A stretch of DNA of 64,000 nucleotides, from positions 1,860,001-1,924,000 of the forward strand of contig NZ_LR746496.1 of the NCBI RefSeq assembly GCF_902729405.1. The letters run 5' to 3'. The stretch comes from Acididesulfobacillus acetoxydans (GTDB taxonomy: Bacteria > Bacillota > Desulfitobacteriia > Desulfitobacteriales > Desulfitobacteriaceae). The notes under the pieces are model-generated. The model worked only from the letters and a program-made list of their open reading frames with translations, ran no database searches and was not told the origin of the DNA. This document shows, piece by piece, positions 6,530-61,840 of this stretch; position 1 is the first letter of the stretch, and every line of letters starts with the position of its first letter. Both the position numbers and the translations under genes were made by a program.

Positions 6530-6550
6530 TCTGTTTCACCTCACAGCGCA

Positions 6551-6595: not shown

Positions 6596-6788
6596 GAACA
6601 CCCTCCCTTTGATCCTAGAAGGACGAGGAAGAAAAAGCAAGGAAAACTTTTCCGGATGGATCCCCTGCCAGGCGGGAGGAGCGAAAATGCCCGCCAAAAG
6701 CGGCGTTGCGGGGGAAAGGAGCGAGCGGCCGGTGAAAGTGGAATCAGCAAAATGTTCTATAATTAGGCAGGAACGGACGCCACTGTAT

Positions 6789-6804
6789 TGGCACAGGTAT
6801 TGCA
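6789..6804 (+). promoter_or_regulatory. Sigma-54 promoter of iadA
   Basis: TGGCAC-aggta-TTGCA is a perfect match to the -24/-12 consensus. Transcription would start near 6816, just before the ribosome site at 6829-6833 and the ATG at 6836. This also rules out an upstream TTG start at 6788. The adjacent gene encodes a sigma-54 activator. Confidence 0.9.
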
Positions 6805-6835
6805 TTACAGATCAGGGGAAAGGGGTAAGGAGGAT

Positions 6836-8044
6836 ATGCAGCGAAGCAGGGAAGAGCAGCAGCCGCTATTTACCATTCTCAAAGGCGGCCACAGGTTTAC
6901 ACCAGAAGACGCGGGTGTTGGGGATGTGGTTTTGGCGGCCGGCACAATAAGCAATTTGGCGGAGGACATTGCCGCGGCGCCGGCCTACGGTGCGGTAGAA
7001 GTGCTCGATGTCAGGGGCAAATACGTAGTTCCGGGTTTTGTTGATCAACATGTTCACATACTTGGCGGGGGTGGGGAAGGGGGCTATACGACACGCACAC
7101 CGGAGGTGATGTTGAGTCAATTGACCGAGGCGGGGATTACGACTGTCGTGGGCTGCTTGGGTACGGACGGCACGACCAGGCACGTTTCCTCCCTCTTAGC
7201 CAAAGCTCGCGCTCTGGAGGAGGAAGGGGTGACAACGTACATCTATACCGGGGCATACGAGGTGCCGGCGCCGACGATCACGGAGAATGTGCGCAATGAT
7301 CTGATCCTCATTGACAAAGTCATCGGTTGTGGAGAAGTAGCAATTGCCGATCATCGCTCGGCTCAGCCCGGCAAGGAGGATCTAAAGAAGCTGGCAGCCC
7401 AATGCCGGGTCGGCGGGCTTCTAAGCGGCAAAGCCGGGGTTTTGCACTTGCATGTAGGGGGCAGCCGCCAGGGGTTAAAGCATCTGTTTGAAATTTTGGA
7501 CGAGGGGGAGATACCGGTCAGCCAGTTTACGCCCACGCACATAAACCGCAGCCAGGCAGTTTTAGAGGAGGGGATTGTTTTTGCCCGGCGCGGCGGCATG
7601 ATAGATTTTACCACGAGTGCCAAACCGGCAGCGGTAGACGGGAGCAGGCTGAAGGCAGCCCGCGCGGTACGCTTCTGCCTGGAGAAAGGGGTGGGAATCG
7701 GCAGCATGACCCTCAGTTCGGACGGGAACGGCAGTCTGCCGCTCTTCAATGAACACGGCCAAACAGTGGGACTGGCAGTGGGCGAACCTGTTTCGCTGCA
7801 CCGGGAATTCAGGGATATGGTGGTGAGTGAAAACCTGGGACTTGAGGCTAGCCTTAGGGTAGTCACGGTAAACCCGGCACGCTCCCTCAGGCTTTTTCCG
7901 AGCAAGGGGGTTCTGAGAGTGGGTGCCGATGCCGACATTCTCATTTTAAATGAAGAGTTAGAGATAGAATACGTCTTCGCCCGGGGTCGCTGCCTGGTGC
8001 GCCAAGGTCGGGCGGTGGTCAAGGGAACTTTCGAAAGGAGCTGA
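6836..8044 (+). CDS. iadA: Isoaspartyl dipeptidase (beta-aspartyl peptidase)
   Basis: 402 residues, close to the usual 390. It hydrolyses beta-linked aspartyl dipeptides, which arise from damaged proteins or cyanophycin. Metal motifs are VDQHVHILGGGGEGG (HxH), IADHRSAQPG, LHVGG, THINR and LSSDGNGS, all specific to IadA. At the site where I recall the E. coli enzyme having a carboxylated bridging lysine (GVKCAISDH), this protein has glutamate (GCGEVAIADH). A Glu bridge occurs in some amidohydrolases, so activity is still plausible. The ATG at 6836 lies just downstream of the sigma-54 promoter with AGGAGG close before it. The gene is followed five bases later by a D-amino-acid transaminase. Confidence 0.93.
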   Translation: MQRSREEQQPLFTILKGGHRFTPEDAGVGDVVLAAGTISNLAEDIAAAPAYGAVEVLDVRGKYVVPGFVDQHVHILGGGGEGGYTTRTPEVMLSQLTEAGITTVVGCLGTDGTTRHVSSLLAKARALEEEGVTTYIYTGAYEVPAPTITENVRNDLILIDKVIGCGEVAIADHRSAQPGKEDLKKLAAQCRVGGLLSGKAGVLHLHVGGSRQGLKHLFEILDEGEIPVSQFTPTHINRSQAVLEEGIVFARRGGMIDFTTSAKPAAVDGSRLKAARAVRFCLEKGVGIGSMTLSSDGNGSLPLFNEHGQTVGLAVGEPVSLHREFRDMVVSENLGLEASLRVVTVNPARSLRLFPSKGVLRVGADADILILNEELEIEYVFARGRCLVRQGRAVVKGTFERS

Positions 8045-43633: not shown

Positions 43634-45355
43634 TTAGAAGTCGAAAACCTGATCGATTTCTTCATCCGTAAAGTCCCAGGTGGCATTGTGGGGCGGGCAT
43701 TTCTCTTTGAAGAACTCCGGAAGGCGATCATCTTTGTTCGTGAAGCCGGCGGCTCGGTTGAAAGCGCGTTCGGTACGGAGGACGGTTTTACCCAATTCCG
43801 AAATGTCGTCACCCGTTAAGCTCAAACCATATTGGGCATTGAGCATATCCACGATGGCGTCAAAGGCCGCAGGGATGTCGAGGACGGCAAAGGCCACGAA
43901 AAGGCATAAGCCCGCACTATCGATGGCGGCAGTAGCAATCTGCAGGTTGCGTGACAATTCGACTTGTCCTTGTTTCTGCAAGGGATCGACATAGCCTCCG
44001 ACTTTTAAAATGTTGGCAGTGACAGCATACCCTGCCGTATGGTCCGCTCCCATGGGTGAGGTGGCAAACGTCAGGCCCTGTCCTTTGACGACCCGCGGGT
44101 CATAGGCCGGTATCCCCTGTCCTTTGACCACTGGGACACGTGTCACTCCTAAGGCTCTGCCGGTAAAAGCAGCCCCATTGCCAAGGATACGGCCCAAGTA
44201 GCTGCCTTTCTGTACTTCACTGAGCAGATTCAAGAGGCCTTGGCCGTCACCGAAGGGAATGACGCCGCCTTCCATGGCCACACCTACGGTTACCGCCGCT
44301 TCAATGGAGTCCAGCCCGATATCATCACAAATCCGGTCCGCTTGGGCAATGATATCCAAATCGTCGATCAGGCAGCCGGCCCCGAAGCCCCAAATCGTCT
44401 CATACTCAAAGCCGGAAGTAACATAATTTCCCTCTGGGTCATTATAGACTTGAGAACAACGAATCATGCAACCCAGATGACAGGCATGGGTCGGCTTGCC
44501 TTTGCGGGCCAGGATTGTGTCATATAGGGTTTCCCCGCTGATTTTGTCGGCGCCGAAAAAATTGCCGCGCCGGAAGTTTTGGGTTGGCAGGCCGCCCGCT
44601 TCATTCATGATATTGATGAGTATATCTGTCCCATATTGGGGCAGCCCCTGGCCCGTCACCGCGTGTTCGGTCAGGGCCTGGGCAAAAGCCTTGGCCGCCG
44701 CGCGGAATTTCTCGCCATTGACCAGCTCCGGCCCCGAGGAGTGGCTATCATCGATGGCAATATATTTGATTTGTTTCGAACCCATGACAGCGCCCATGCC
44801 GCCCCGCCCGGCGCTGCGCAGGTTGCCGTCCGGATCTTTTACTGAGATGTTGGCGGCCGTCATCCGATATTCGCCCGCCTGGCCAATCGTGAGCACGCCC
44901 ACATCAGCGCCGTATTTTTCACTCACCCTGTGAACGACCTCATAGTTACCTTTGCCAACAAGCTCTTTCTCTTCAGTAATTATCACGCCTTGGCTGTTGA
45001 TGTGGATGCAGTAAAAGGCTTTCCCCGGCGGCTTGCCCTCTATGATGACTGCCTTGATGCCGAGCCGCGTCAATTTCTGAGCCGCACTGCCCCCGGCATT
45101 GCTTTCTTTGATCCCTCCGGTGAGCGGGCTTTTCGCACCGACAGAAAGACGTCCGGAATTGGGCGCAGTAGTCGCAGACAAGAGTCCCGGCGCTAATATT
45201 AATTTGTTGTTGGCTCCCAATGGGTGGCACAACGGGTCAACTTCCTTAGCCACTATGGCCGAAGACAAAGCCCGCCCCCCGAGTGCCCGCCATTCCGGCG
45301 GAACCTCCTCTGTAACGGCTGTTAAATGGGTCAGGTTGATGCGGTAGATTTTCAT
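43634..45355 (-). CDS. aor: Aldehyde:ferredoxin oxidoreductase (tungstopterin AOR family)
   Basis: 573 residues, a little under the usual 600-620. It oxidises aldehydes to acids with ferredoxin, or in reverse reduces acids, using a bis-pterin tungsten cofactor and one 4Fe-4S cluster. The N-domain has LILAPGLLSATTAPNSGRLSV and the GGSAAQKL region. The cluster cysteines are C-x3-C-x3-C (ACHLGCMIRC) plus a distal Cys in IDSAGLCLF. Pterin-binding segments include RGGMGAVMGSKQIK and DDIGLDSIEA. It is divergent from an AcoR-like activator and has a perfect sigma-54 promoter (45497-45512). Beyond the activator lie the W-cofactor and W-transport genes. Confidence 0.95.
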   Translation of the reverse strand: MKIYRINLTHLTAVTEEVPPEWRALGGRALSSAIVAKEVDPLCHPLGANNKLILAPGLLSATTAPNSGRLSVGAKSPLTGGIKESNAGGSAAQKLTRLGIKAVIIEGKPPGKAFYCIHINSQGVIITEEKELVGKGNYEVVHRVSEKYGADVGVLTIGQAGEYRMTAANISVKDPDGNLRSAGRGGMGAVMGSKQIKYIAIDDSHSSGPELVNGEKFRAAAKAFAQALTEHAVTGQGLPQYGTDILINIMNEAGGLPTQNFRRGNFFGADKISGETLYDTILARKGKPTHACHLGCMIRCSQVYNDPEGNYVTSGFEYETIWGFGAGCLIDDLDIIAQADRICDDIGLDSIEAAVTVGVAMEGGVIPFGDGQGLLNLLSEVQKGSYLGRILGNGAAFTGRALGVTRVPVVKGQGIPAYDPRVVKGQGLTFATSPMGADHTAGYAVTANILKVGGYVDPLQKQGQVELSRNLQIATAAIDSAGLCLFVAFAVLDIPAAFDAIVDMLNAQYGLSLTGDDISELGKTVLRTERAFNRAAGFTNKDDRLPEFFKEKCPPHNATWDFTDEEIDQVFDF

Positions 45356-45496
45356 GAAACCCCTCCCTTTGCTTAGAATTCCCTCGTACTCGGATTATGG
45401 GGTCCGGACTGCCGGCGGTGCCGGGTAAGAAGGCCGCTTAGAATATGATCCTTAGAGCCGGAGTATCAAAGTGTCGGCTCTGTAAATATTGCATAT

Positions 45497-45512
45497 TGCA
45501 AGGACTGTGCCA
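45497..45512 (-). promoter_or_regulatory. Sigma-54 promoter of aor
   Basis: On the minus strand TGGCAC-agtcc-TTGCA, a perfect -24/-12 match. Transcription would start near 45485, leaving a leader of about 130 bases before the ATG at 45355. Confidence 0.92.
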
Positions 45513-45638
45513 ATACAGTTTTGCGGTCTGACTTTTTCCTCACCCCGGCTGCCATGCGGCTTGCGAGTGTCTTGGGCGTTTAGACAACGGTGTTCGGGCA
45601 CGAGGGGCCTGACTTCATGGCTCCCAGATAATACACTT

Positions 45639-45669
45639 CTGTTCCACGCCCTGCTCCAAAACGGAACAG
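45639..45669. promoter_or_regulatory. Candidate activator binding site (inverted repeat) upstream of aor
   Basis: CTGTTCC (45639-45645) and GGAACAG (45663-45669) form a perfect 7-bp inverted repeat with a 17-bp spacer, 127-157 bp upstream of the aor -24 element. That is a normal place for a sigma-54 activator. The two half-sites are 24 bp apart centre to centre, slightly more than two helical turns. Confidence 0.6.
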
Positions 45670-45694: not shown

Positions 45695-45723
45695 TTGTAC
45701 AACATGGGATCCTATGCTATTCT
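45695..45723 (+). promoter_or_regulatory. Sigma-70 promoter of the AcoR-like activator gene
   Basis: TTGTAC (45695-45700), 17 bp, TATTCT (45718-45723). It lies 60 bp before the ATG and just downstream of the inverted repeat, so the activator could also influence itself. Confidence 0.7.
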
Positions 45724-45782
45724 GTTTTAAGACAGGATATTTTTAAAATATTGCCAACCGTTTGAACTTCGGAGGGACGGGT

Positions 45783-47492
45783 ATGAAAAGCGCTTGGGTT
45801 GCTTTTGTCCATGGTGAAGAGCCCATCGGGGTCGAACCGGTTATTTTGCGCTCTTGGCAGCGCTGCCTCAACCATATGATCGATTACGAGCGGATTGCAG
45901 ACAATGACATCTTGCCGGCGCGTTTACTGGAAGAACGTTTGCACCTGGAGGAGTCTTTATTGCATGCGGCCCGCCCTGTCCTTTCCCTGCTTTTTAATAT
46001 TCTAAAAGGATGCAATCACGCGCTTCTCTTGAGTGACCGGGACGGTTATATTATGGATTCGCGTGGGGATCCTTTCTTCTTAACGAAGTCCCGGACGGTT
46101 TACTTAACACCGGGTGTTTCTTGGCGTGAGACTGTGAAAGGAACAAACGCGATCGGCACGGCTTTAATTGAAAAAACTCCCGTACGCGTTCTCGGGGCGG
46201 AACACTTTGTCCAGGAGAATCACTTTCTCTGCTCTTGGGCGGCCCCCATCCTCGGCCCGGACGCCGGTACCATCGGTATCCTGGACATCAGCGCTCACGC
46301 CGCACTTAGCCAAGCCCGCTTTCTGGAGTTGGCGATTCTGGGTGCTCGCATGATCGAAGTGAATCTTCGTCTTGCGAACTACGAACGCAGAGAAACCACT
46401 CCGATCTGCGGCTCTACCCCTTATTTCGAAACCGCAGCCGTCGGTTCCCCCCCACTCCTTCGTCCATTGCCGGCTTCCGACGATTCCCAGCTTCTGACAT
46501 ATCCTCTTTGGGTTGGCTCCGGCGAGGCCAGCCGCCGGATTTTACAGCGAGCGGCTAAAGTCGCGGCGACATCGACCTCTGTCCTCCTCCTGGGAGAGAG
46601 CGGCACGGGCAAAGAAATCATCGCCCGGCATATTCACCTTCTCAGCCCCCGCCGGGACGGGCCTTTTGTCGCACTCAATTGTTCCGCCCTGCCGGATTCC
46701 TTGGTGGAAAGCGAACTTTTTGGCTATGCGGAAGGGGCTTTTACGGGGGCAAAACGCGGAGGCAAGCCGGGCAAGTTTGAATTGGCCCGAAGGGGAACTA
46801 TTTTTTTGGACGAAATCGGGGACATTTCTGTCAAGGTACAGTTGGCTCTCCTCAGGGTGCTCCAGGATAAGGAAATTTACCGTATCGGCTCGGGAAAGGC
46901 GCGGCCCCTGGATGTGCGCGTGATTGCGGCGACCCATCGCAATTTGGCTGACTTGGTACACCAAGGCAAGTTTCGGCTCGATCTCTATTACCGGTTAAAA
47001 GTGATTACGATCGATCTTCCCCCCTTGCGGGAACGCCTTCACGACGTGTTCGACTTGGTTCCCCATTTTATGGCTAAGTTCTGCCCTGACGGTAAAATCC
47101 GGCAAATTGCGCCCGAAGTTTACTCAGCCTTTCTCGCTTATTCCTGGCCCGGTAATGTCCGTGAGTTGGAAAACTGTGTGGAAAGCATGTGCGCCTTGGC
47201 GAACGGTCCCTGCCTAACGGTCGAGGATCTTCCTCCCGAAATTCTGTGCCCGACCACGGACCTGGGCTCTCAGGAGATTAAAGCAGCGCAAGAGGTTGAA
47301 CCCCACACCCAATCTCCGTTGTCGTCCGCCGGGACACCGCCAGCCGGACTATTACGCGTCCAGACGCGGGAGACCATTTTGGAGGCTCTCAGCCGTTCAG
47401 GAGGCAGGATCGCTCCGGCGGCCCGTTTGCTGGGCATCGGACGCAACACCCTCTACCGAAAACTGAAGGAGTTGGAAATCAAACTTCATTAA
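45783..47492 (+). CDS. Sigma-54-dependent activator, AcoR-like, with GAF sensor
   Basis: 569 residues from ATG 45783 (GGAGGG six bases upstream). The N-terminal part matches AcoR-type proteins: [18 protein letters not shown] opening helix, then a GAF domain (about 60-215; [58 protein letters not shown]). AAA+ with Walker [15 protein letters not shown] and Walker [11 protein letters not shown]. Fis-type HTH at the end ([20 protein letters not shown]). AcoR relatives respond to small carbonyl compounds such as acetoin; here the divergent aor and its sigma-54 promoter indicate aldehyde or tungsten-enzyme control. The ligand is inferred only. Confidence 0.95.
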
Positions 47493-47820: not shown

Positions 47821-47970
47821 AGAAAACTAGTTTGTCATAGAGAAAATGGAGATCGTGCCCGACGATGTCTGCCTTTTCGTATCGGCTGACTCTAATCCGG
47901 ACCGTTGATAATCCTCATCCGCTCTGCCCCTTTGACGAAATTTAATGGTGTTTTGAGGGAGGTTCTAGCC

Positions 47971-48678
47971 GTGGAACCGAAGAAATTCGCCGACCGCTAT
48001 TTGCGTAATCAGAAAACGATTTCTCAGGATGAGCAGGCAAAACTGGCAAAGGCGACAGTGGTTATTGCAGGTTGCGGGGGTCTGGGTGGATATATCAGTG
48101 AAGAGATGGCCCGGGTGGGGGTCGGTCACCTGGTCCTGATCGACGGGGACCGAATCGATGTGACCAACCTGAATCGCCAAATTCTGGCTGCCGAAGACAA
48201 TATCGGTGAGTGGAAGGCCGAAGCGGGACGGGAGCGAATTCGGCGGATTAATTCAGGTACGAAAGTAGATGCCGCTTGCGCTTGGTTCAGGGAAGAAGAT
48301 TCCGCGCAGCTTTTGGCGGGAGCCGATCTGGTTTGCGATGCTTTGGATTCCCTTTCTGCCCGCTTAGCCTTGGAACGTTCCTGCCATACGCTGGGAATTC
48401 CGCTGCTTTATGCCGCTATCGGCGGCTGGTTTGGGATTTTGGGTCTTAGCTTCCCGGGGGAGTATTGTGTGGCCCGATTATTGAAAGGAGGGGACAAGGG
48501 GATTGAGACGCTCTGGGGCAACCCGGCTTTTACCCCCGCCGTCGTGGCAAGTTTGGCGGTGGCGGAAGGGGTTAAGGTGCTCACAGGAAAATCCCCGGCC
48601 CTGCGTGGTTCCTGGCTGCAAATCGATTTATTGGCCATGGAGTTTGAACTTTTCAGGCTTTCGGGGGAGACTTTGTGA
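47971..48678 (+). CDS. ThiF/MoeB/HesA-type adenylyltransferase
   Basis: 235 residues from GTG 47971, seven bases after GGAGG; a longer reading from 47905 has no site. The nucleotide-binding motif is VVIAGCGGLGGYISEEMARVGVGHLVLIDGDRID, with VTNLNRQI (the R that contacts ATP) and DALDSLSARLALE. It adenylates the C-terminal glycine of the MoaD-like carrier encoded 150 bp upstream. The CxxC zinc pair of canonical MoeB is not visible, as in HesA-type proteins. It ends 109 bp before moeA. Same operon as the carrier. Confidence 0.9.
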   Translation: MEPKKFADRYLRNQKTISQDEQAKLAKATVVIAGCGGLGGYISEEMARVGVGHLVLIDGDRIDVTNLNRQILAAEDNIGEWKAEAGRERIRRINSGTKVDAACAWFREEDSAQLLAGADLVCDALDSLSARLALERSCHTLGIPLLYAAIGGWFGILGLSFPGEYCVARLLKGGDKGIETLWGNPAFTPAVVASLAVAEGVKVLTGKSPALRGSWLQIDLLAMEFELFRLSGETL

Positions 48679-48787
48679 AAGCACCTTGTGCGCCTGCAAA
48701 CTAAGCATTTTGATCGCGTATTTTTACCGCCTGGGGATTGCGACCGCTATAATCCCTCAGGACGGCGGGGGTAGGGGAGGATTGAAC

Positions 48788-50032
48788 ATGGGGTGGGGCA
48801 AGGAACTTTTTTCCGTGATCACTCTGGACGATGCTTTAAAGGTGCTGGAACCTTACGTCCGGCCCTTATATGAAAGGAGAGAAGAAGTTCCCCTCAGCGC
48901 ATCCTGGGGGCGGGTCGTGGCCGTTGATGTTCCCGCCGGGGGACCGCTGCCGCATTTTCGAAAGTCGACGGTGGACGGTTTGGCAGTCCGGGCCCAGGAT
49001 ACCTTTGGCGCAAGCGAAAGTCTGCCGGCCCTGGTGCAAGTGCGGGGTGAAGTCACGATGGGGCGGGCCCCGCGGGAAACCTTGGAATCGGGGCAAAGCC
49101 TTCTTATCCCTACGGGTGGAATGCTTCCGGCGCAGGCCGACGCGGTGGTCATGTTGGAACACCTGGAAGATTTCGGCCAAGGGCTTTACGGGGTGACGAA
49201 AGCGGTGGCACCCGGAGAAAATGTCATTGACATCGGAGAGGATGTGCAGGCCGGCGAGGTTATCCTGCCCCAATACACCGTCATCCGGGCGCAGGAGATG
49301 GGGCTGCTTGCTTCCCAGGGTATCCTGAGCGTTCCGGTTCTGCCCCGTGTGCGGGTGGGAATTCTCTCCACCGGAGATGAAATCGTATCCCCCGAGTCGG
49401 AACCGCAGCCTGCCCAATCGCGGGATATCAATGGCTACACCCTTTTGGGTCAAGCCGTCGCAGCCGGATTTGCAACGCATTACTATGGTATCGCCGCGGA
49501 TGAACCCGCTGAGTTGCGGCCCGTTTTGGAGCAGATGCTGGCGGAAAATGATGTGGTCATACTTTCCGGAGGAAGCTCCGTGGGGGCGAGGGATTTGACG
49601 GCTCAGATGGTGGATGAATTGGGGAGGCCGGGGCTTCTTTTTCATGGTTTGGCTTTGAGACCCGGCAAGCCGACAATTGGGGGAGTGGTGGGGGGTAAGA
49701 TCATCATCGGTTTACCGGGGCATCCCGCCTCAGCGATGGTCGTGTTCGACACTCTGGTCAGGCCCCTCTTGGATGGTTCACGACGGCGGCCGGAGTTCCC
49801 TTTGCCGCAGGCAGAGCTTACCCAAAACGTCTATTCGGGAACAGGGCGCGAAGAGTTTATCCGGGTGCGTCTCGAACAGAAAGATGAGTTGTGGTTGGCC
49901 GAACCCGTGCGTGGGAAATCCGGTCTCATCCGGACCATGGTTTTAGCGAACGGGCTGGTGCATATCCCTTTGAATGTTGAAGGGATCCAGGCCGGCGAAA
50001 AGGTGAGAGTGCGGCCCCTGAGACGATTTTAA
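48788..50032 (+). CDS. moeA: Molybdopterin molybdenumtransferase MoeA
   Basis: 414 residues from ATG 48788, with GGGGAGGATTGAAC before it; a longer open reading back to 48503 overlaps the thiF-like gene. It inserts molybdate or tungstate into adenylylated pterin. The domains are normal: PHFRKSTVDGLAVRAQDT, IPTGGMLPAQADAVVMLEH, ILSTGDEIVSPES, VILSGGSSVGARDL and GLPGHPASAMVVFDTLVRP (MPT-binding, metal-inserting site). The next gene is a second MoeA with an added domain. Having two copies, one next to an aldehyde oxidoreductase, is typical of organisms that separate Mo and W insertion. Confidence 0.95.
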   Translation: MGWGKELFSVITLDDALKVLEPYVRPLYERREEVPLSASWGRVVAVDVPAGGPLPHFRKSTVDGLAVRAQDTFGASESLPALVQVRGEVTMGRAPRETLESGQSLLIPTGGMLPAQADAVVMLEHLEDFGQGLYGVTKAVAPGENVIDIGEDVQAGEVILPQYTVIRAQEMGLLASQGILSVPVLPRVRVGILSTGDEIVSPESEPQPAQSRDINGYTLLGQAVAAGFATHYYGIAADEPAELRPVLEQMLAENDVVILSGGSSVGARDLTAQMVDELGRPGLLFHGLALRPGKPTIGGVVGGKIIIGLPGHPASAMVVFDTLVRPLLDGSRRRPEFPLPQAELTQNVYSGTGREEFIRVRLEQKDELWLAEPVRGKSGLIRTMVLANGLVHIPLNVEGIQAGEKVRVRPLRRF

Positions 50033-50052
50033 AGCAAAGCTGTCAAAGAGTG

Positions 50053-50167
50053 AACTCGTTCAGCTAAAGCTGAACATCGAGACTTCGGTGGGGGAGTTTA
50101 CCCCCCGAAGCGGGGTACGTGGGACCCACTCCCACTTGCAGAAGTGGGAGTCTTCACTTTGGATAAA
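50053..50167 (+). repeat. Structured intergenic repeat, copy C
   Basis: AACTCGTTCAGCTAAAGCTG starts the element. It continues GAGACTTCGG-TGGGGGAGTTTACCCCCC and ends in a hairpin, CTCCCACTT/AAGTGGGAG, then TCTTCACTTTGGATAAATTG. The flanking CAAAGAGTGAA (50045) can pair with TTCACTTTG (50153), closing the element. It separates moeA and the MoeA fusion gene. Confidence 0.75.
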
Positions 50168-50265
50168 TTGTTGGCGGAAAAGTTTCTTTAAAAGGGCTCT
50201 GTCCGGATCTCTAAAGTTGAATTGACTTTGGCCGAGTATAGGTAAGTTGGGATGGGGGAGCGAGT

Positions 50266-52197
50266 ATGGAGCAGAAGATCTATTTGCAAAACCAGGCTTG
50301 GGAAGAGGCCTTGGCCTTGATGATGAGAGAACTCGGCCCGCGTTGTCAGCCGGAAAACGAGCCCATAAAGGTCAGCTGTGCTTTGGGCAGAATCACCGGG
50401 GAAACGGTGCGTGCACAGCGCAGCTCTCCCCACTATCCGGCCGCTGCCATGGATGGCTATGCCGTGCGGGCCCGAGAGACATTTGGGCTCAATGAGCGGC
50501 AGCCGCGCTGGTTTCAACTCGGCAGTGAGGCGCTTTCCGTGGATACGGGGGACCCCATGCCGAAAGGGATGGACGCTGTGGTGATGCTGGAAGAAGTCTT
50601 GAATAAGACGGAGGAAGCGGTCTTATTGCAACAGGCCGTAGTCCCTTGGAGTAACGTACGCGCCGTTGGCGAAGATATTGTGGAAGGAGAAATCCTGCTG
50701 CCTATTCATCACCGCCTTCGCCCCCAGGACCTTGGGGCCTTGCTGGCGGGGGGGGTTACGGAACTCGCGGTGCGGCGCAAGCCGCGGGTGGGTATTTTGC
50801 CCACGGGGGATGAGATCCGGGCACCGGGCCAACCTTTGAATGTGGGCGAGATTGTCGACAGTAATTCCACAGTTCTCTCCGCTTTGATCGCCGAGTGGGG
50901 CGGAGAGGCAAAAGTCTGGCCAATAGTGGCAGACGACTGGGATCAATTGGAGAATGCCGTCCTCGCAATGGAGGCCAGCCAGGATATCTTGGTCATCATT
51001 GCCGGGTCCTCCCAAGGCAGGGATGACTACACCGTTCCCCTGATCGAAAAGTTTGGCCGGATTTATGCTCACGGGATGGCGATTAAGCCGGGCAAACCGG
51101 CCATGCTGGGTGAGATTAAAGGAAAACCGGTGATCGGCATCCCGGGATACCCTGTTTCTGCCTTTTTGACGGCCCGGCTTTTTTTGCGGGCTTGGATCAA
51201 ACACGAACTGGGTCTGCCCAGCGGCACACTGCCCGTTATGCGGGCTTTCTTGAACAAAAAGGTGTTTTCCGGTTTGGGAAGTGAAGAATTCGTTCGGGTC
51301 AAGGTGGGGCGGGTGGGGGAGCGCTGGGTTGCCGCTCCGATCAGCCGGGGAGCCGGCGTCACGATGAGTCTGGTCCGGGCTGATGGCATCTTGAGGGTGC
51401 CCCGCTTGCAGGAAGGTTTCCATGAAGGTGCGCCCGTACAGGTGGAACTACTGCGTCCTCAGGAGGAACTGGAAGAAACTTTAATCTGCATCGGCTCGCA
51501 TGACCTCACACTCGATCTGATGGACAGCTATCTCAAAATGAACGGGCGCCACGGGGCCTTGGCTTCAGCCCATGTCGGCAGCCTGGCGGGGCTCATGGCT
51601 TTGCGCAAAGGGGAAGCCCATCTGGCTGGGGTACACCTTTTGGACCCGGAAAGCGGGGAATATAACCGGCCTTATTTAGAGCGCCTCCTGCCCCAACGCC
51701 GGATCGCCCTGGTCAATCTGGTCTACCGCACCCAAGGGCTGTTGGTGGCACGGGGCAACCCTCTTAAGCTTCGGACGCTGGCGGACCTGGCGGACGGCAG
51801 ACTGCGTTTCGTAAATAGGCAGGGTGGATCCGGGACACGCGTTCTTCTGGATTACCTCTTGGCACAAGAGGGAGTAGACAAGCAACAAATTCTTGGTTAC
51901 GACCGGGAAGAGTTCACCCACCTGGGAGTGGCGGTGGCCATTGCTTCGGGCAGCGCCGATGCAGGCTTGGGCATCCAGAGTGCCGCTTTGTCTCTGGGGC
52001 TTGATTTCATTCCTATCGGGGAGGAACGCTATGATCTGGCCATTCCGCAAGAATATCTGGCCGATCGCCGGATAGAGATGCTGTTGGAAGTTATCGCAAG
52101 CCCGGATTTTCAGGCGGAAGTTCGGGCCATGGGAGGATATGACCTGCGGGACGCGGGGAAATTCATGAACGGGCCGGGGGAAACACAGGCTGAGTGA
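50266..52197 (+). CDS. MoeA fused to a periplasmic-binding-like domain
   Basis: 643 residues from ATG 50266 (GGGGGAGCG upstream). Residues about 1-405 are a full MoeA (YPAAAMDGYAVRARETFG, VVMLEEV, ILPTGDEIRAPGQ, VDSNSTVLSALI, IAGSSQGRDDYT, GIPGYPVSAFLTARLF). Residues about 415-640 are a periplasmic-binding-like domain (LICIGSHDLTLDLMD, HVGSLAGLMALRKGEAHLAGVHLLDPESGEYN, NRQGGSGTRVLLDYLL) of the kind also fused to HTH domains in Mo/W regulators. The fusion may bind pterin-bound metal or oxyanion and pass it to the MoeA part. Whether it prefers W or Mo cannot be read. Confidence 0.93.
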   Translation: MEQKIYLQNQAWEEALALMMRELGPRCQPENEPIKVSCALGRITGETVRAQRSSPHYPAAAMDGYAVRARETFGLNERQPRWFQLGSEALSVDTGDPMPKGMDAVVMLEEVLNKTEEAVLLQQAVVPWSNVRAVGEDIVEGEILLPIHHRLRPQDLGALLAGGVTELAVRRKPRVGILPTGDEIRAPGQPLNVGEIVDSNSTVLSALIAEWGGEAKVWPIVADDWDQLENAVLAMEASQDILVIIAGSSQGRDDYTVPLIEKFGRIYAHGMAIKPGKPAMLGEIKGKPVIGIPGYPVSAFLTARLFLRAWIKHELGLPSGTLPVMRAFLNKKVFSGLGSEEFVRVKVGRVGERWVAAPISRGAGVTMSLVRADGILRVPRLQEGFHEGAPVQVELLRPQEELEETLICIGSHDLTLDLMDSYLKMNGRHGALASAHVGSLAGLMALRKGEAHLAGVHLLDPESGEYNRPYLERLLPQRRIALVNLVYRTQGLLVARGNPLKLRTLADLADGRLRFVNRQGGSGTRVLLDYLLAQEGVDKQQILGYDREEFTHLGVAVAIASGSADAGLGIQSAALSLGLDFIPIGEERYDLAIPQEYLADRRIEMLLEVIASPDFQAEVRAMGGYDLRDAGKFMNGPGETQAE

Positions 52198-52276
52198 ATC
52201 CAGAAAGCCCCGGGGAATAGTTCGGAGTGTCATCAGGGGAGGGCCCTGTACTTTTCAGCCCAAGAATGTGTGACCC

Positions 52277-52326
52277 TATGGGAGCCGCCGTCATAGCCAC
52301 AGAATGAGCAGGCGGAGACGCCCATA
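52277..52326 (+). promoter_or_regulatory. Structured leader hairpin before wtpA
   Basis: TATGGG (52277-52282) pairs with CCCATA (52321-52326), enclosing GCCGCC/GGCGG and a 15-base loop with CATAGCCAC. It sits 34 bases before the wtpA start. I could not match it to the Moco riboswitch consensus, although such control would be expected here. Confidence 0.4.
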
Positions 52327-52359
52327 CAAAAATAGTATTTTATGAGGGAGGATGCAGGA

Positions 52360-53418
52360 ATGTTTAAGACAAAAGAAAGAGTTTCCCAAGGGTTAGGCAG
52401 TGGGACGAAACCGGGAAAAGGAAAGCAATTGCTGCCGGTGGTTTTGGCGGGGGTTCTTCTCCTTTCCGGCTGTGGCGCAACCCAGGGAGCCGCCGGGGGG
52501 AAAAGTTCGGGGGGCCAAACCGCTTCCGGAGCCAAGGTGACGCTGCCGGTCTATGCCGCGGGGACTTTGGCGAAACCTTTCAAGGAACTGGATGCTAAGT
52601 TCCAGGCCAAATACCCGAATGTCACGGTTCAACCCCAATTCGGCGGCAGTGTCAAAATGGTCAAGCAGGTCACGGATCTTAAGCAACTGGCGGATGTGGT
52701 AGCCGTGGCCGATTATAGTGTGATTCCCAAGTACATGCTGGGTGCCGGCGGCCAAAAGAAATATGCGGATTGGTATGTCGGTTTTGCCAGTAACGCGATT
52801 ACCTTTGTTTACACAGATAAGAGCAAAGGACAGGACAAGATCACTCCCGACAATTGGTACAAGGTCTTGGCGCAAAAAGGCGTTCAGATTGGCCGTTCCA
52901 ACCCGGACACCGACCCGTCGGGATACCAGACGCTGCAAATGTTAGACCTGGCGGAGAAATACTATAAAGCCCCGGGTTTAGAAGAGAAGATCTTGGCTAA
53001 CGCGCCCCAGACCAATATGCGGGATACGGAAACCGAACTGCTTAACGCTTTGAAAACCGGTCAGATTGATTATCTGGCCATCTACCAATCCGATGCTAAA
53101 CAGAATCATTTGAAATACCTTAAACTGCCGCCTCAGATCGATCTAAGTAATCCGGTCTACAGCAAGGAATACATTGGGGCGGCAGCCAAGACGAAAAACG
53201 GTGAATTGACCGGGAAACCGATCGTTTACGCGCTGACCATTCCGACTAACGCTCCTCATGCAGCCTGGGCCGAAAAGTACGTTGCTTTTCTCCTGGGACC
53301 GGAAGGACAGGCGATTTTGAAAAAGGATGGATTTGGCCTTCTGCCCAAACCGTATGCCAAGGCGATGGACAAAGTTCCCACCGATATCAAGAGTCTGGTG
53401 GAGGCTTGGCCCCAGTAA
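52360..53418 (+). CDS. wtpA: Tungstate/molybdate-binding lipoprotein (WtpA type)
   Basis: 352 residues from ATG 52360, eight bases after GGGAGG; an ATG at 52342 contains that site and is less likely. A lipobox LLLSGC follows about 27 residues. The mature domain contains the typical TLPVYAAGTLAKPFKELDAKF, a serine-rich anion loop, LADVVAVADYSVIPKYM, YVGFASNAITFVYTD, IGRSNPDTDPSGY and LGPEGQAILKKDGFG, all characteristic of WtpA/TupA-like oxyanion binders rather than ModA. It presents tungstate or molybdate to the WtpBC transporter just downstream. The adjacency to AOR and MoeA genes favours tungstate. Confidence 0.9.
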   Translation: MFKTKERVSQGLGSGTKPGKGKQLLPVVLAGVLLLSGCGATQGAAGGKSSGGQTASGAKVTLPVYAAGTLAKPFKELDAKFQAKYPNVTVQPQFGGSVKMVKQVTDLKQLADVVAVADYSVIPKYMLGAGGQKKYADWYVGFASNAITFVYTDKSKGQDKITPDNWYKVLAQKGVQIGRSNPDTDPSGYQTLQMLDLAEKYYKAPGLEEKILANAPQTNMRDTETELLNALKTGQIDYLAIYQSDAKQNHLKYLKLPPQIDLSNPVYSKEYIGAAAKTKNGELTGKPIVYALTIPTNAPHAAWAEKYVAFLLGPEGQAILKKDGFGLLPKPYAKAMDKVPTDIKSLVEAWPQ

Positions 53419-53458
53419 AATATAGAACGGGGTATTTTGAGAGTAGTAGGAGAGGCCT

Positions 53459-54274
53459 GTGGAAACTATGCCAAGAAGCGGACCGACGCGGGGGCGCGCC
53501 CTGTTTCTCCTCTTTTGGTTATTGGGGGGCGCCCTGCTCATCTTTATTCTTTTGCCACTGGTTGCTATGTTTAGCCAAGAATCTGCCAAGACTGTGGTCC
53601 GGGTCGCCGCCATGCCTGATGTGCGTGCTTCCATTCTTCTGAGTTTGGAGGCGGCCTTACTTTCCGCCGGCATAGCGGCCCTGTTGGGGACCCCGTTGGC
53701 TTATCTTCTTGCCCATCGCGAGTTCCCTCTGAAGTCGCTGGTGGAAGGGATTGTGGATCTGCCTTTAGCGGTTCCGCACACTGTCGCCGGCATCGCTCTT
53801 TTGTACGCTTTTGGCCGCACCGGTCTCCTCGGGCGGCTGGCGGCTCAAGTGGGCCTGAAGTTCTGGGGAACGCTGGCAGGGGTCGTGGTCGGAATGCTTT
53901 TTGTCAGCTTGCCCTATATGGTAAATTCGGCCCGGGAAGGTTTTCAGGGTGTCGACGTGCGCTTGGAAAAGGCGGCCCGGACTTTGGGAGCTTCACCCAG
54001 CCAGGTTTTTTGGCAGGTTTCCCTTCCGCTTGCCGGGCGCAGCATCTTGAGCGGGACGGTGCTCACCTACGCCCGTTCGGTGGCAGAGTTCGGAGCGGTC
54101 ATAATTTTGGCCTATTATCCGCAAACGGCGCCGGTTAAAATTTATGAACTCTTTTTAGCCGGTAACTTGGGGCAGTCGGCGGCGGCGGCACTTTTACTTC
54201 TCCTGATCACTTTGTCGACGTTTTTGCTCTTTCGCCGCTTAGTCTACGCTCGGGTCTGGAAACGGGGGCGTTAA
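53459..54274 (+). CDS. wtpB: Tungstate/molybdate ABC transporter permease (WtpB/ModB type)
   Basis: 271 residues, six membrane helices, GTG 53459 with AGGAGAGG upstream (ATG 53468 also possible). The EAA loop reads VRLEKAARTLGASPSQVFWQVSLPL with the conserved glycine, and DLPLAVPHTVAGIALLYAFG is typical of ModB/WtpB permeases. The C-terminal SVAEFGAVIILAYYPQTAPVKIYE is also family-specific. It is coupled three bases before the ATPase gene and lies 40 bp after the binding protein gene. Confidence 0.93.
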   Translation: METMPRSGPTRGRALFLLFWLLGGALLIFILLPLVAMFSQESAKTVVRVAAMPDVRASILLSLEAALLSAGIAALLGTPLAYLLAHREFPLKSLVEGIVDLPLAVPHTVAGIALLYAFGRTGLLGRLAAQVGLKFWGTLAGVVVGMLFVSLPYMVNSAREGFQGVDVRLEKAARTLGASPSQVFWQVSLPLAGRSILSGTVLTYARSVAEFGAVIILAYYPQTAPVKIYELFLAGNLGQSAAAALLLLLITLSTFLLFRRLVYARVWKRGR

Positions 54275-54277
54275 AAG

Positions 54278-56098
54278 ATGGCAGTCCCATCGGAGACAGA
54301 CAATTTACTGACGGTTGAGAATTTGTCCGTGCAGGTGGGAAGTTTTCAACTGCGGAATATCACGCTTCGCCTTCAGCGCGGGCAGGTTCTTGTGATCTTG
54401 GGCGCCAGTGGCTCCGGTAAGTCTGTCCTTTTGGAGAGTGTGGCCGGTTTTAACCGGTCTGCCACAGGACGGATTTGGCTTGGCGGTCGGGAGGTGACGC
54501 ACTATCCGCCGGAAACGCGTCAGATCGGTTTTATGTTTCAGGATTATGCCCTTTTTCCCCATCTGAGTGTGCGAGAGAATATTCTCTTCTCAAAGAGATT
54601 TCTGGGAGCGTATCGTTCGAGTATTTTTGGCTCATGGCTGACAAGGCGTTTAAGCAAAGTTTCGGGTATTTCCGAAAGTGGGCCCGGCCCGGGGCTTGGA
54701 CAGGATGAAAGGGATTTGGCTGGGAAACCGCCAAGATCCCTTGTGCTCCCATGTCCGGAGGTAAACCAACAGGGTGAGGGGACGCAGGCTGAGAACGGCC
54801 GGTTTAACAAATGGCCGGAGTCTGAAGGCTCCGAGCCGTTTAGCTTTACTGGGATTGTCGAAACCCTGCGGATAGAACATCTGTTGGAACGATATCCGGG
54901 CCAATTAAGCGGGGGAGAAAAACAGCGTGTGGCTCTTGCGAGGGTTCTCATCCAGCAGCCGAAGCTTTTCCTTTTTGATGAGCCTATGTCAGCTTTGGAT
55001 GCACGCACACGGGAGGAACTGCGCGCCGAATTGAGCAGGATTCTTAAAACGCTGAAACTGACGGCTATTTATGTGACCCATGATCAGGCAGAGGCTTGGG
55101 CCCTAGCCGATCAAGTGTGCATCCTGCGGCAGGGTCGGGTGGTTCAGACAGGAAAGACGGAAGACGTCTTCTACCATCCTGCGGACGTGGCGACTGCCAG
55201 GTTTATCGGGATGGATAATATCCTGAAAGGGAAATTCTGTTCGGTGCAGCACCGGGTTGGAAAAACCGGCATCCGCGGGCCGGGGAGAGGTTGCGAACAA
55301 GTGGACACATTGCCGCGGGAGGTCGAGGTGCCGGGTCTGGGGTATTTCTTGACCGAAAGCTCGCTTCCGCAGGCGTATCCTCGACGTGAAATTGGGGAAG
55401 CGGGGGAAAGGCACACCCATTCGCCAAGCGGAAAAGAGGAGGAAGACGCGCCTAAGGGGGCTCATAGAGCGTCAGAGAGTCATGAAACAAAAGGGGCCGA
55501 TCAAGCCAGAGAAGTTAGGGAGGACCATGAAGCCGGAGGGTCAGGGCGAGGTGATGAAACCAGGGTAACTAAACGTACGGAAACTCGCGGCGCGAAAGGA
55601 GTTCATGCGACTGAGGAAGCTCAGGAGGCAAGGACAAATCCACGGGTCGAGAAAGATCCGCGGGCCGCAGAAGATCCGCGGGCCGCAGAAGATCCGCGGG
55701 CCGAAGACGATCCGAAGGTTGAAGAAGATCCGCAGGCAGGGGAAGTCTATTTGGGTATCCGTCCGGAGGATATCGTGGTTGAAGGCCTCAAGTCTGACCG
55801 GCGGCTCTTTGCGCGAGCGGCCGGAGGAGAACACAGCCCTTGGTTCGGCGCCGAATCGGTGGGCAGAGGTCGCGATGGGGTCTCTCACAGGAATACGATA
55901 CTGACGGATGAGGCCAATTACGTCCAGGCGGTGGTCGAGGAAATAACGCCTTGGGGTATTTTATGTAAGCTGCATTTCGCGGAACCGGCCGGACTAACGG
56001 CCTTGGTTCTCAAACAGCAAGTACAAGGCTTGGGATTAGACAGAAGTGCCAGGGTGCGACTCTATTTTCCACCGGGACAGCTGCACGTGATGCGTTAA
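54278..56098 (+). CDS. wtpC: Enlarged tungstate/molybdate ABC ATPase (WtpC/ModC type) with two low-complexity insertions
   Basis: 606 residues; the family normally has about 340-360. The ATPase core is complete: Walker A GASGSGKS, Q-loop MFQDYALFPHLSV, signature LSGGEKQRVALARVL, Walker B LFLFDEPMSALD and H-loop YVTHDQAEA. Two insertions are present. The first, about 75 residues (near 112-190), lies between the helical subdomain start and the signature. The second, about 150 residues (near 330-480), splits the TOBE region and is charged and repetitive, holding EDPRAA units coded by an 18-bp tandem repeat. The frame is open throughout. The regulatory end (VYLGIRPEDIVVEG and TPWGILCKLHFAEP) is preserved, so function is probable. 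Confidence 0.92.
   Translation: MAVPSETDNLLTVENLSVQVGSFQLRNITLRLQRGQVLVILGASGSGKSVLLESVAGFNRSATGRIWLGGREVTHYPPETRQIGFMFQDYALFPHLSVRENILFSKRFLGAYRSSIFGSWLTRRLSKVSGISESGPGPGLGQDERDLAGKPPRSLVLPCPEVNQQGEGTQAENGRFNKWPESEGSEPFSFTGIVETLRIEHLLERYPGQLSGGEKQRVALARVLIQQPKLFLFDEPMSALDARTREELRAELSRILKTLKLTAIYVTHDQAEAWALADQVCILRQGRVVQTGKTEDVFYHPADVATARFIGMDNILKGKFCSVQHRVGKTGIRGPGRGCEQVDTLPREVEVPGLGYFLTESSLPQAYPRREIGEAGERHTHSPSGKEEEDAPKGAHRASESHETKGADQAREVREDHEAGGSGRGDETRVTKRTETRGAKGVHATEEAQEARTNPRVEKDPRAAEDPRAAEDPRAEDDPKVEEDPQAGEVYLGIRPEDIVVEGLKSDRRLFARAAGGEHSPWFGAESVGRGRDGVSHRNTILTDEANYVQAVVEEITPWGILCKLHFAEPAGLTALVLKQQVQGLGLDRSARVRLYFPPGQLHVMR
55655..55744 (+). repeat. In-frame 18-bp tandem repeat inside wtpC
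   Basis: GATCCGCGGGCCGCAGAA repeats at 55655, 55673, 55691, 55709 and 55727, exactly 18 bp apart, with the last two copies diverged. It encodes DPRAAE-type hexapeptides. The unit keeps the reading frame. Confidence 0.93.
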
Positions 56099-56444: not shown

Positions 56445-56850
56445 ATGAAGCAAGTCTATGATCAAAAGAGAACAGAGAGCTACGACAAATTCTACGATAC
56501 CGCAGAAGGTCGTATTGTTGGACGAATTGAAAAGGAAACCATCTATTCTTGTCTAGAACCAGGAACGGGTTTGAAGGTGCTTGATATTGGCTGCGGTACC
56601 GGTCGCTATTCTATAGATCTTGCCAGAATGGTTTTAGAGGTTACTGGGGTTGATGTTTCAACGGCAATGTTGGAAAAGGCTCAGTTAAAGGCAACTGAGG
56701 CTGGGGCATCTATCCAGTTTGTTGAAGCAGATGCTCAATGCCTGCCCTTTGGCGATGAGACATTTGATTTGGTGTTGTCAGTAGACTCAATGGAGTGGGT
56801 TTCGGGTTTTCCCGCATCCTTGCAGGAAGCATTCCGAGTGTTGGAAGTTG
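56445..56850 (+). pseudogene. Truncated class I SAM-dependent methyltransferase
   Basis: About 135 residues from ATG 56445. Motif I is VLDIGCGTGRYSIDLARM, the acidic strand VTGVDVSTAMLEKAQ, then EADAQCLPFGDETFDLVLS and EAFRVLEVG; these are ubiquinone/menaquinone-type methyltransferase features. A normal protein would continue for another 80-130 residues after FRVL. Here the homology stops at about 56848 where transposase sequence begins, so the gene is cut by an IS event. Its base composition is lower in G+C than its neighbours. Confidence 0.75.
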
Positions 56851-56851
56851 G

Positions 56852-57486
56852 GGCGGGTCGTGAGTGTGGCGGAAGCCAAGCGTGATGCCCATACCCGCGC
56901 CAAGCACCTGGAGAAGCTGAAGCAGAAGCTCGCGAAGCTGAAGGAGCTGGACGGAGAAGCGCACACCAAAGCCCACTGTGCCCTCTACAGCCATATCGTC
57001 TACAAGCGATATTTGCAAATCGATGCTAAAGGCAACCTTAGGATTAACCAGAAAGCGGTCAAAGCCGCGGAAAGGCTGGACGGGAAATACCTTATCCGCA
57101 CCTCGGATGACACCGTCTCCATAGAGGATATCACCTTGGGCTTCAAACAGCTTTGGGAAGTGGAGCGGGCTTTTCGCACGCTCAAAACGACTCTGGAGCT
57201 ACGGCCTGTTTACCACCGAAAAGACGATCGGATCTGTGCCCATGTCCTGCTGTGTTGGCTGGCTTTGCTCCTGGTACGCCTGGCAGAAGTAGAGACTCAA
57301 CAAACTTGGGCCAACCTTCGTTTCGAACTGGAGAAAATTTATCTCGTCGAGTGGGAATCGACGGACGGGAAAGTCTTTCAAAGGACAGAATTAACCCACG
57401 AGCAAACGGGTATTTTTCCAGCACTCAAATTGCCGGAACCCCCGAGAATATGGGATATTTCGCTTCCCAAGGGGCAAAAAGTGTAG
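56852..57486 (+). pseudogene. C-terminal remnant of a DDE transposase (IS1634/IS4-like)
   Basis: About 210 residues corresponding to the end of IS1634-type transposases: EAKRDAHTRAKHLEKLKQKL, DGKYLIRTSDDTVS, and the catalytic glutamate region QLWEVERAFRTLKTTLELRP with YHRKDDRICAHVLLCWLALLL. The two catalytic aspartates of the N-terminal half are absent. No intact terminal inverted repeat was found on the left; the fragment directly abuts the methyltransferase remnant. The element is inactive. Confidence 0.8.
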
Positions 57487-58724: not shown

Positions 58725-58727
58725 ATG

Positions 58728-59255
58728 GTGGCTCAACAGAGTTTTCGGGCGGATCTTTTTTACCGGTTGAATGTCGTGCCAATTCACATACCTCCGCTAC
58801 GGGAGCGCCCGGATGATATCGTCCCTTTGTCTATCCATTTCCTGGAGGTATTTAACCGCAAATACGGCAGGAACATAAGGTTTGAGCCAGACGTTTTATC
58901 AGCTTTTGAAAGCCTGCCCTGGCCTGGCAACGTACGGGAATTGGAGAATCTGATTGAGCGACTGATCGTCATGAGTGAGGATGAGGTTGTGACCCTCAAG
59001 CATTTGCCGTTTAAAGTGAAGACACCCGAACGCCAAGCCCTGGTAATTCAGGTTAATAAGCCGATATCTTTCAAGAAAGCAGTTCAAATGTTGGAGAAAG
59101 AACTTCTGCAAAAGACCATGCAGTCTTACCCCACGACCAGACAAGCGGCCAAAGTCTTGGGCGTTTCCCATCCAACAATTATCCGGAAACTTCAGAAGTA
59201 TAAATTGCCTCCTGGCTCAGAGGACAGTGCGGATAGTGCGGATAGTGCGGAATAG
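58728..59255 (+). pseudogene. C-terminal fragment of a sigma-54-dependent activator
   Basis: About 175 residues. The fragment starts inside the AAA+ domain at [25 protein letters not shown] (sensor and arginine-finger region), continues [17 protein letters not shown] and ends with a Fis-type HTH (TTRQAAKVLGVSHPTIIRKLQKYKL). Walker A, GAFTGA and the sensor domain are missing, so it cannot activate transcription by itself. A 9-bp repeat (GTGCGGATA) gives an SADSADSAE tail. It sits directly before the promoter of the second aldehyde-oxidoreductase operon, as if the operon's own activator was decapitated by the IS/toxin insertion. Confidence 0.85.
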
Positions 59256-59571: not shown

Positions 59572-59587
59572 TGGCACGATACTTGCA
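59572..59587 (+). promoter_or_regulatory. Sigma-54 promoter of the second oxidoreductase operon
   Basis: TGGCAC-gatac-TTGCA is a perfect -24/-12 element. Transcription would start near 59599. A perfect palindrome GCGTTATAACGC (59543-59554) lies 17 bp upstream, close for an enhancer site but fit for a repressor or bending protein. Confidence 0.92.
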
Positions 59588-59835: not shown

Positions 59836-59860
59836 GACTTGCCGGACAGAGGTGTTGAAA

Positions 59861-61840
59861 ATGAGGTATGCCGAGACAGGGTATAATTTAGAAATTGATC
59901 TATCACGTGGAAATATTGAAAGAGTAGAAACGGATCCGGGACTGGCCGAACGCTTCCTGGGTGGGCTCGGTACGAACGCCAAGATACTTTGGGAGAGGGT
60001 TTCTCCGGAAGTTGACCCCTATTCCGAAGACAATCTTCTTATTTTCGGAGCGGGTCTTTTGACAGGCACGCCCGCTCCCGGCGCTAACCGTACTATTGTC
60101 TCCAGTTTTTCCCCTCAGACCAAGTTAATGGCCTATTCCATGATGGGAGGTTTTTTTGCCCCGGAACTGAAGCATGCCGGTTATGACAAAGTCATTATCA
60201 GGGGTCGGTCTCCCGAGATGGTGTACTTGTGGATCAATAATGATAAAGTTGAATTGCGTGATGCCCGGCATCTTCTGGGGAAAGGCACCTTGGAAACTGC
60301 AGAACTTATCCGGCAGGAGTTGAGGGAACCGAATGCCCAAGTGGCGGCCATCGGTCTGGCCGGCGAAAACAGGGTGTATTATGCTTCCATTGAGCAGGGA
60401 CGTTCCAGCGCCAGCCGCTTAGGCATGGGCGGTGTCATGGGAGACAAAAGGTTAAAGGCCATCGCGGTGCGGGGAACCAAGGACGTCAATATAGCCAGAC
60501 CGGCCGAATTTATGGAGCAGTGCAATGAAATTCTGAAATACGTAAAATTTCGGGAAAAACACCCCCTGGGAATGGTGCCGCCTATTTTAGCCGGGCTGGG
60601 GTCACCGCAAGAGATGAGAATTCATGATGAGGAGTGGCACACGACAAATTTTACCTGGGGCAATGCCCGCCTGCGCCGCAAAGACTTTTGGACCAAGGAA
60701 GTCGAACAGAGCTGGAAAGAGACTCAGGAAAAAGCGCGGGAACGATTTTTAAGCTGCTATAACTGTCCGCTGAGTTGCGGGGCTTCCGTGGCTTACCCCG
60801 GGGTTCCCAAATACATGATGAAATGTTATTCCAAACTCACCTACACCATGGCAGCCATGTCGGATTTAGATTTCGGCTATAAAATTAATTACAATGCTCA
60901 GACCTACGGAGTGGACGGATTCACAACCCCGCAGGTGATTGCCTTTGCCCTTGAGCTTTATGAAGCCGGTATTTTGACGGACCGGGACCTGCCGGGGATG
61001 CCAGCCGGCAGTGAGGAGAGATTTTTTTGGTTACTTGAGAAAATTGTACGACGGGAGGGGATCGGGGATGTTTTGGCCAACGGCACCTATTGGGCGGCCA
61101 AAGAAATCGGACGGGGTGCAGACGAATATGCTCACAACAATATCAAAAAACACGAGCAGCTTCCTCTCAAACTGGGGATGCTCAATCCCATCTACTTCCT
61201 CATGTATTCTACCGGCGAGAAAATTAACATTACTCAAATCGAGGGGCAGTTTCCGCAGGCGCCTTTCCCTAAAAGGGAGGAAAGAGAAGAGTTTGTTAAG
61301 GACTGGGTCCAGGTTCCGGAGGAAAAGTTTAAACAGTATTTTCTGGACTGGGAACCGCGCGGCGAAAATTCCATTCCGTATTACCCCTCGGTAGAAGCTA
61401 CGTGTGAAATTGTTGACTGGATGGAGAAGATGCACCATATCGACGATTCCACCGGCATGTGCGCCGGGTTGTCCTCCTTTCCGCTCAAGCCGGCGTATCA
61501 CTTGCACAATTACCCCAGTTTAATCTCTGCCGCAACCGGGATTGATTTTGATGAAGCAAAGCTTAAGCAAGCGGCTAAGAGAAACCGGACCTTAATCAGA
61601 GCCATCAATGTCAGGAGAGGCTTGAGAAGAGTGGATGAACGTCCGCCCGAGGATCATTGGAAACACCGCTTTCCCGAGCTCGAAACGAAGCTTTTGGATG
61701 CGTATTACCACTTTAAAGGCTGGGACAATCAAGGGGTTCCGACCCGGGAGTGCCTGAGGGAATTGGGTTTGGATGATGTCGGTGAGGACTTGGAACAGCG
61801 AGGAATTACGGGCAATGAGCAAAGTGAAAAAGAAGATTAA
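59861..61840 (+). CDS. AOR-family tungsten oxidoreductase, BamB-like
   Basis: 659 residues from ATG 59861 (GAGGTG six bases upstream). The AOR fold is shown by LIFGAGLLTGTPAPGANRTIVSS, the pterin segment SRLGMGGVMGDKRLKAIA, the cluster motif C-x2-C-x3-C (SCYNCPLSCGASVAY) and the distal Cys in DSTGMCAGLSSF. Length and partner genes (a polyferredoxin and a CCG-domain protein) resemble BamB, the W-containing subunit of class II benzoyl-CoA reductase, and related AOR-like subunits of unknown substrate. Unlike the first AOR it lacks its own complete activator. Substrate cannot be deduced; it may reduce or oxidise a carboxyl or aldehyde group. Confidence 0.92.
   Translation: MRYAETGYNLEIDLSRGNIERVETDPGLAERFLGGLGTNAKILWERVSPEVDPYSEDNLLIFGAGLLTGTPAPGANRTIVSSFSPQTKLMAYSMMGGFFAPELKHAGYDKVIIRGRSPEMVYLWINNDKVELRDARHLLGKGTLETAELIRQELREPNAQVAAIGLAGENRVYYASIEQGRSSASRLGMGGVMGDKRLKAIAVRGTKDVNIARPAEFMEQCNEILKYVKFREKHPLGMVPPILAGLGSPQEMRIHDEEWHTTNFTWGNARLRRKDFWTKEVEQSWKETQEKARERFLSCYNCPLSCGASVAYPGVPKYMMKCYSKLTYTMAAMSDLDFGYKINYNAQTYGVDGFTTPQVIAFALELYEAGILTDRDLPGMPAGSEERFFWLLEKIVRREGIGDVLANGTYWAAKEIGRGADEYAHNNIKKHEQLPLKLGMLNPIYFLMYSTGEKINITQIEGQFPQAPFPKREEREEFVKDWVQVPEEKFKQYFLDWEPRGENSIPYYPSVEATCEIVDWMEKMHHIDDSTGMCAGLSSFPLKPAYHLHNYPSLISAATGIDFDEAKLKQAAKRNRTLIRAINVRRGLRRVDERPPEDHWKHRFPELETKLLDAYYHFKGWDNQGVPTRECLRELGLDDVGEDLEQRGITGNEQSEKED

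Follow-up and report, generated by a model that had tools for sequence, protein, structure and literature searches.

A predicted AorR-type sigma-54 switch before a tungsten aldehyde oxidoreductase gene of Acididesulfobacillus acetoxydans

Here, we describe a region of the Acididesulfobacillus acetoxydans genome in which a tungsten aldehyde:ferredoxin oxidoreductase gene (aor) and a divergent activator gene are likely to form an AorR-type sigma-54 switch, which as a full account explains the observations best. The predicted enhancer of this switch is a 17-bp dyad with N5 spacing that lies within the right half of a wider inverted repeat with N17 spacing. The analysis covered a window of 64 kb (the whole stretch of DNA analysed; G+C content 53.9%), whose relevant features, in window coordinates, are as follows.

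43634..45355, minus strand: aor, tungsten aldehyde:ferredoxin oxidoreductase (AOR), 573 aa (Pfam AFOR_N and AFOR_C)
45497..45512, minus strand (reads 45512-45497): sigma-54 -24/-12 element TGGCAC-N5-TTGCA, TGGCACAGTCCTTGCA (exact letters)
45619..45635, unstranded: second, weak and probable candidate activator site GGCTCC-CAGAT-AATACA, 33 bp from the main dyad
45639..45669, unstranded: inverted repeat CTGTTCC-N17-GGAACAG (CTGTTCC 45639-45645; GGAACAG 45663-45669; exact letters)
45652..45668, unstranded: main predicted upstream activator site, the dyad TGCTCC-AAAAC-GGAACA (from conservation and matrix score)
45695..45723, plus strand: sigma-70-type promoter of the activator, TTGTAC-17-TATTCT (TTGTAC 45695-45700; TATTCT 45718-45723)
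45783..47492, plus strand: activator, an AorR-like enhancer-binding protein of 569 aa, divergent from aor (Pfam; alignment with 31 relatives)
Within the activator: GAF 60-174, AAA+ 245-410 with GAFTGA, Fis-type HTH 529-564 (Pfam)

The aor product has the AFOR_N and AFOR_C domains and the four Fe-S cysteines of the tungsten AOR family, with solved-structure (PDB) relatives 9mqx, 1aor and 8c0z; all four cysteines are kept, the first three spaced CX3CX3C instead of CX2CX3C. The gene would be the only one of its transcript, with a converging neighbour beyond it, and it is separated from the activator gene by a spacer of 427 bp; the ribosome sites of both start codons look good on inspection by eye. 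A sigma-54 promoter before aor had been proposed in a first-pass annotation of this DNA and is borne out: the 64-kb window holds three exact -24/-12 elements, this one included; a loose version of the pattern has a single match in the spacer, where 300 shuffles average 0.0; the genus's other genome keeps all 16 letters of the element; and the loose pattern recurs in 17/18 AOR loci of the activator clade. The genome carries a single copy of rpoN. A perfect 7-bp hairpin, AGAGCCG-N14-CGGCTCT (45454-45481), stands at the extreme 5' end of the aor transcript as predicted here, in a leader that is weakly conserved (52% vs the sister genome); an Rfam scan of this leader, including the molybdenum/tungsten cofactor riboswitches, returned no family at gathering thresholds.

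The earlier reading of the facing gene as a divergent AcoR-type activator with a promoter of its own also holds, as the GAF, AAA+ and Fis-type HTH domains are found, these parts are conserved where the gene pair is kept, and the exact TTGTAC-17-TATTCT letters are kept in relatives as TTGTAC/TTGTTT-17-TATTCT. The activators of relatives are 619-655 aa long and carry a GAF domain plus a PAS-like stretch (a Pfam PAS was detected in three of those scanned). This stretch is absent from both the window activator (569 aa) and the sister activator (593 aa), and the window's genus has, by this alignment, lost the PAS domain. The predicted structure of the sensor half (pLDDT 94.7) has the N-terminal region of E. 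coli DhaR as its nearest solved fold (TM 0.86), and an attempt to read a ligand from the GAF model through that fold gave no ligand analogue. The GAF motif itself is general to AcoR-type activators, and a scan of the genome collection with the sensor half as query gave no match. A near-palindrome, TGTTTTAAGACA (45723-45734; TGTTTTAAAACA in sister genome L036), overlaps the activator -10 region and is a possible repressor or autoregulation site.

The dyad emerged from a search of 100 relatives, which yielded orthologous activators with a common element in their spacers; orthologs and paralogs were separated by the tree only. The consensus in relatives is TGTTCC-N5-GGAACA (that is, TGT-N11-ACA), and the window copy carries TGC rather than TGT on one side, so that TGYTCC-N5-GGAACA covers it as well. 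When the spacers of 25 non-redundant relatives were scanned for TGTTCC-Nd-GGAACA with at most 2 mismatches, d=5 was found in 20/25, d=17 in 2/25 and any other d in 0-3, against an average of 0.12 for d=5 in shuffles; the genomes compared are related, so that these counts do not stand for separate events. With the window left out, a matrix from 19 relatives gives its best score in the 64 kb (20.1) at 45652-45668, a score that none of 500 spacer shuffles reaches (shuffle maximum 14.4). The genus's other genome matches the dyad at all 17 positions, vs 68% identity over the whole spacer, and the distance from dyad to -24 element is 93-212 bp in AOR loci and 148 bp in the window. In most relatives a second copy of the dyad lies 32-34 bp from the first. 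The candidate second site at 45619-45635 scores only 4.6 with the matrix and aligns with the clear second sites of loci L037 and L067, GGACTAACATGGAACA; paired sites three helical turns apart would suit cooperative binding. Candidates for further regulon members in the window's own genome were rejected: its four other exact matches to the dyad have no sigma-54 site within about 1.5 kb or more on each side.

Promoter and dyad keep company with the activator. All five AOR orthologs that adjoin the activator (5/5) have both, and among 14 AOR ortholog loci without the activator (L174-L187) neither the dyad nor an adjacent sigma-54 element was found in any. The 32 activator loci comprise 18 that face a tungsten AOR, 12 that lead to a 907-aa molybdenum protein (MOP; best solved relative 1sij, the molybdenum aldehyde oxidoreductase of Desulfovibrio gigas, 1381 bits), one that faces an iron alcohol dehydrogenase (Fe-ADH) gene (L056), and L059, where the 600 bp examined hold no dyad and no promoter. 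Neighbouring Fe-ADH genes have a sigma-54 element in 25/29 cases, the dyad in 24/29 and both in 20/29 (control coding segments, 1/60), and in Carboxydocella (L053) activator, Fe-ADH and AOR genes stand in a row. On the activator tree the AOR/MOP partner state takes six changes, which points to repeated exchange or rearrangement of these partners. Within the genome that holds the window, the best match to a D. gigas-type MOP is only 32% identical, and the Fe-ADH gene sits in another aldehyde/alcohol cluster (L245, G000:C1:845000-857000), where an NAD aldehyde dehydrogenase gene, a sigma-54 element and an AcoR-like activator other than the present one occur without the dyad. At L088, L091, L096, L107, L143 and L148, whose hosts are Acidobacteriota, Geobacteraceae, Bacillota and Betaproteobacteria, an AOR gene likewise has a distant AcoR-type activator no more than a few kb away.

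Comparison across these loci shows a promoter and a dyad at a kept spacing, both of them missing from loci that lack the activator; binding and looping by the activator are supplied by what is known of the family. The activator would be made from its own sigma-70-type promoter and would bind 45652-45668 and 45619-45635, two sites on one helix face, probably as paired dimers. A signal would then switch the N-terminal GAF domain, the AAA+ ring would loop across about 150 bp to sigma-54 polymerase at 45497-45512, and transcription of aor, by analogy with the family, would begin near 45486.

The arrangement is not without precedent. AorR, sigma-54 promoters and TGT-N10-12-ACA sites before aor-moaD were predicted in Clostridium and Geosporobacter, with no ligand given for AorR (Nie et al., 2019, PMC6615313). 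As there, the window has an enhancer-binding protein, a sigma-54 promoter and a TGT-N10-12-ACA-type site before an aldehyde oxidoreductase gene; the protein combines a GAFTGA-bearing AAA+ domain with a Fis-type HTH, and the dyad stands 148 bp off, inside the range of 100-250. We therefore place the window switch with the AorR kind, from its domain plan, promoter and site as set against the published description. The target of AorR is the aor-moaD operon, whereas aor stands alone in the window, a difference of the operon and not of the activator. The Clostridium operon was read as serving alcohol synthesis, whereas the window belongs to a sulfate-reducer family, and MOP and Fe-ADH are added in its relatives. 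Since AorR control of aor had already been predicted in Clostridium, the present result carries a known type of switch over to the Desulfosporosinus family, which the cited papers do not describe, and widens the range of its targets. Two traits are unusual for AorR: the absence of the PAS domain from this genus, and MOP and Fe-ADH as targets in relatives.

Other activators share parts of this plan. AdhR of Clostridium beijerinckii is a GAF-PAS activator with several required sites and no ligand given, which acts on adhA through three sites (PMC7017808); it resembles the window in its GAF(-PAS)-AAA-HTH plan, its several upstream sites and its alcohol dehydrogenase target, but that target is adhA and not an AOR gene, and it retains the PAS domain that is lost here. 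AcoR shares the GAF-(PAS)-AAA-Fis HTH plan and the sigma-54 mechanism, but has acetoin targets and a distinct site motif in Clostridiales (PMC6615313); no aco genes lie beside the window activator, and the partners in relatives are AOR, MOP and Fe-ADH. BmoR of Thauera butanivorans, an alcohol-responsive sigma-54 activator whose site lies 193 bp upstream from its -24/-12 boxes (PMC8899819), differs in controlling an alkane monooxygenase. DhaR has a similar sensor-half fold, but was solved with DhaK/DhaL and has a different target.

Because tungsten AOR, molybdenum MOP and Fe-ADH share one activator clade and one dyad, they appear to form an alcohol/aldehyde regulon, and the signal of the activator probably reports alcohol or aldehyde availability; such a signal is supported, though not proved, by these targets in relatives. 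In Desulfotomaculum kuznetsovii, a neighbouring ADH and AOR are both abundant on methanol and ethanol (PMC5770442). As the enzymes that share the site and the activator clade are non-homologous, the candidate inducers of AOR reduce to a short list (alcohols, aldehydes and their acids) for which a single promoter fusion would serve as a screen. The simplest signal is an aldehyde or alcohol that the GAF domain binds, at a little under even odds. A broader scheme, which we advance tentatively, is that one clade with one site commands AOR, MOP and Fe-ADH, unrelated enzymes whose chemistry connects, that neighbours have been exchanged repeatedly so that a single sensor drives whichever metalloenzyme a genome owns, and that the bare GAF domain of this genus detects the aldehyde alone. 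The PAS-less activator would offer a natural minimal version for asking what GAF alone senses.

It is somewhat unlikely that the switch is right and the signal is a partner protein, a metal or cofactor, or a redox state instead of a small carbonyl compound. This reading is a serious rival to the aldehyde because DhaR, the nearest fold of the sensor, binds proteins: it was solved with DhaK/DhaL and is controlled by proteins. The genes that come after the activator (47905-56098) encode a MoeB/ThiF-like protein, two MoeA-like proteins and WtpABC tungstate uptake, and AOR and MOP need different metals, so that metal state could choose between them. However, no DhaK/DhaL-like partner adjoins the activator in the window, Fe-ADH shares the dyad yet requires neither a W nor a Mo cofactor, and this genus can do without the PAS domain.

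Within the preferred reading, an AorR-type switch, the dyad could have a second use. In most loci its centre is some 100-150 bp away from the start of the activator, even where the enzyme gene is 1.8 kb distant, and in 9 MOP loci a molybdopterin-binding gene lies between it and the MOP promoter, at a distance of 1.44-1.48 kb; because of this remoteness and the near-constant distance to the activator, dyad conservation may partly serve the activator's own promoter. That the dyad exists mainly for activator autoregulation, with AOR activation using it incidentally, is nevertheless improbable, as it stays 93-212 bp from AOR and adjacent MOP promoters and Fe-ADH promoters without an adjacent activator start have it at normal enhancer distance, roughly 110-250 bp upstream of their own sigma-54 element. 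We think it equally doubtful that the aor promoter is driven, additionally or for the most part, by another of this genome's many enhancer-binding proteins whose HTH is similar: the genome gave 52 first-look candidates, with 13 strong activator matches scored, and TGT-N10-12-ACA sites are common to 15 activator groups (PMC6615313), but the gene pair is divergent, and dyad and promoter are missing where this activator is missing.

The first-pass annotation had named CTGTTCC/GGAACAG as the enhancer and had made its conservation across orthologous AOR/activator pairs the test of that claim. Its letters are exact and an enhancer is predicted in the spacer, its right arm GGAACAG falling within the conserved dyad, and the left arm is partly kept in the sister genome as CTGCTCC; the N17 geometry, at 2/25 spacers vs 20/25 for N5, did not survive that test, and was rejected as the activator site. 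The window contains 135 perfect 7-bp inverted repeats whose arms are 3-20 bp apart; a shuffled spacer holds 0.54 of them on average, and 35% of shuffles have one or more, so the wide repeat is at chance level, and the 6 bp that separate CTGTTCC from the dyad are only 33% identical to the sister genome. Binding of the activator to the N17 repeat as a single widely spaced site is thus very improbable. In its place the N5 dyad gives a tungsten-enzyme gene a corrected enhancer that can be tested, and the relatives point to a coherent alcohol/aldehyde regulon of the Desulfosporosinus family.

Several other features were observed in the window. One of the two MoeA-like proteins carries a substrate-binding-protein domain, and the ATPase at 54278-56098 has a long charged low-complexity insert. 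A second tungsten AOR gene (59852-61840) has its own exact -24/-12 element (59572-59587), upstream of which lies a C-terminal activator remnant (58725-59255) that is missing the sensor and most of AAA+, with a transposase-like ORF (56848-57486) to the left of the remnant. The third exact -24/-12 element (6789-6804) precedes an amidohydrolase/dipeptidase-like gene, from which a PrpR-like activator gene diverges (region 4472-8044).
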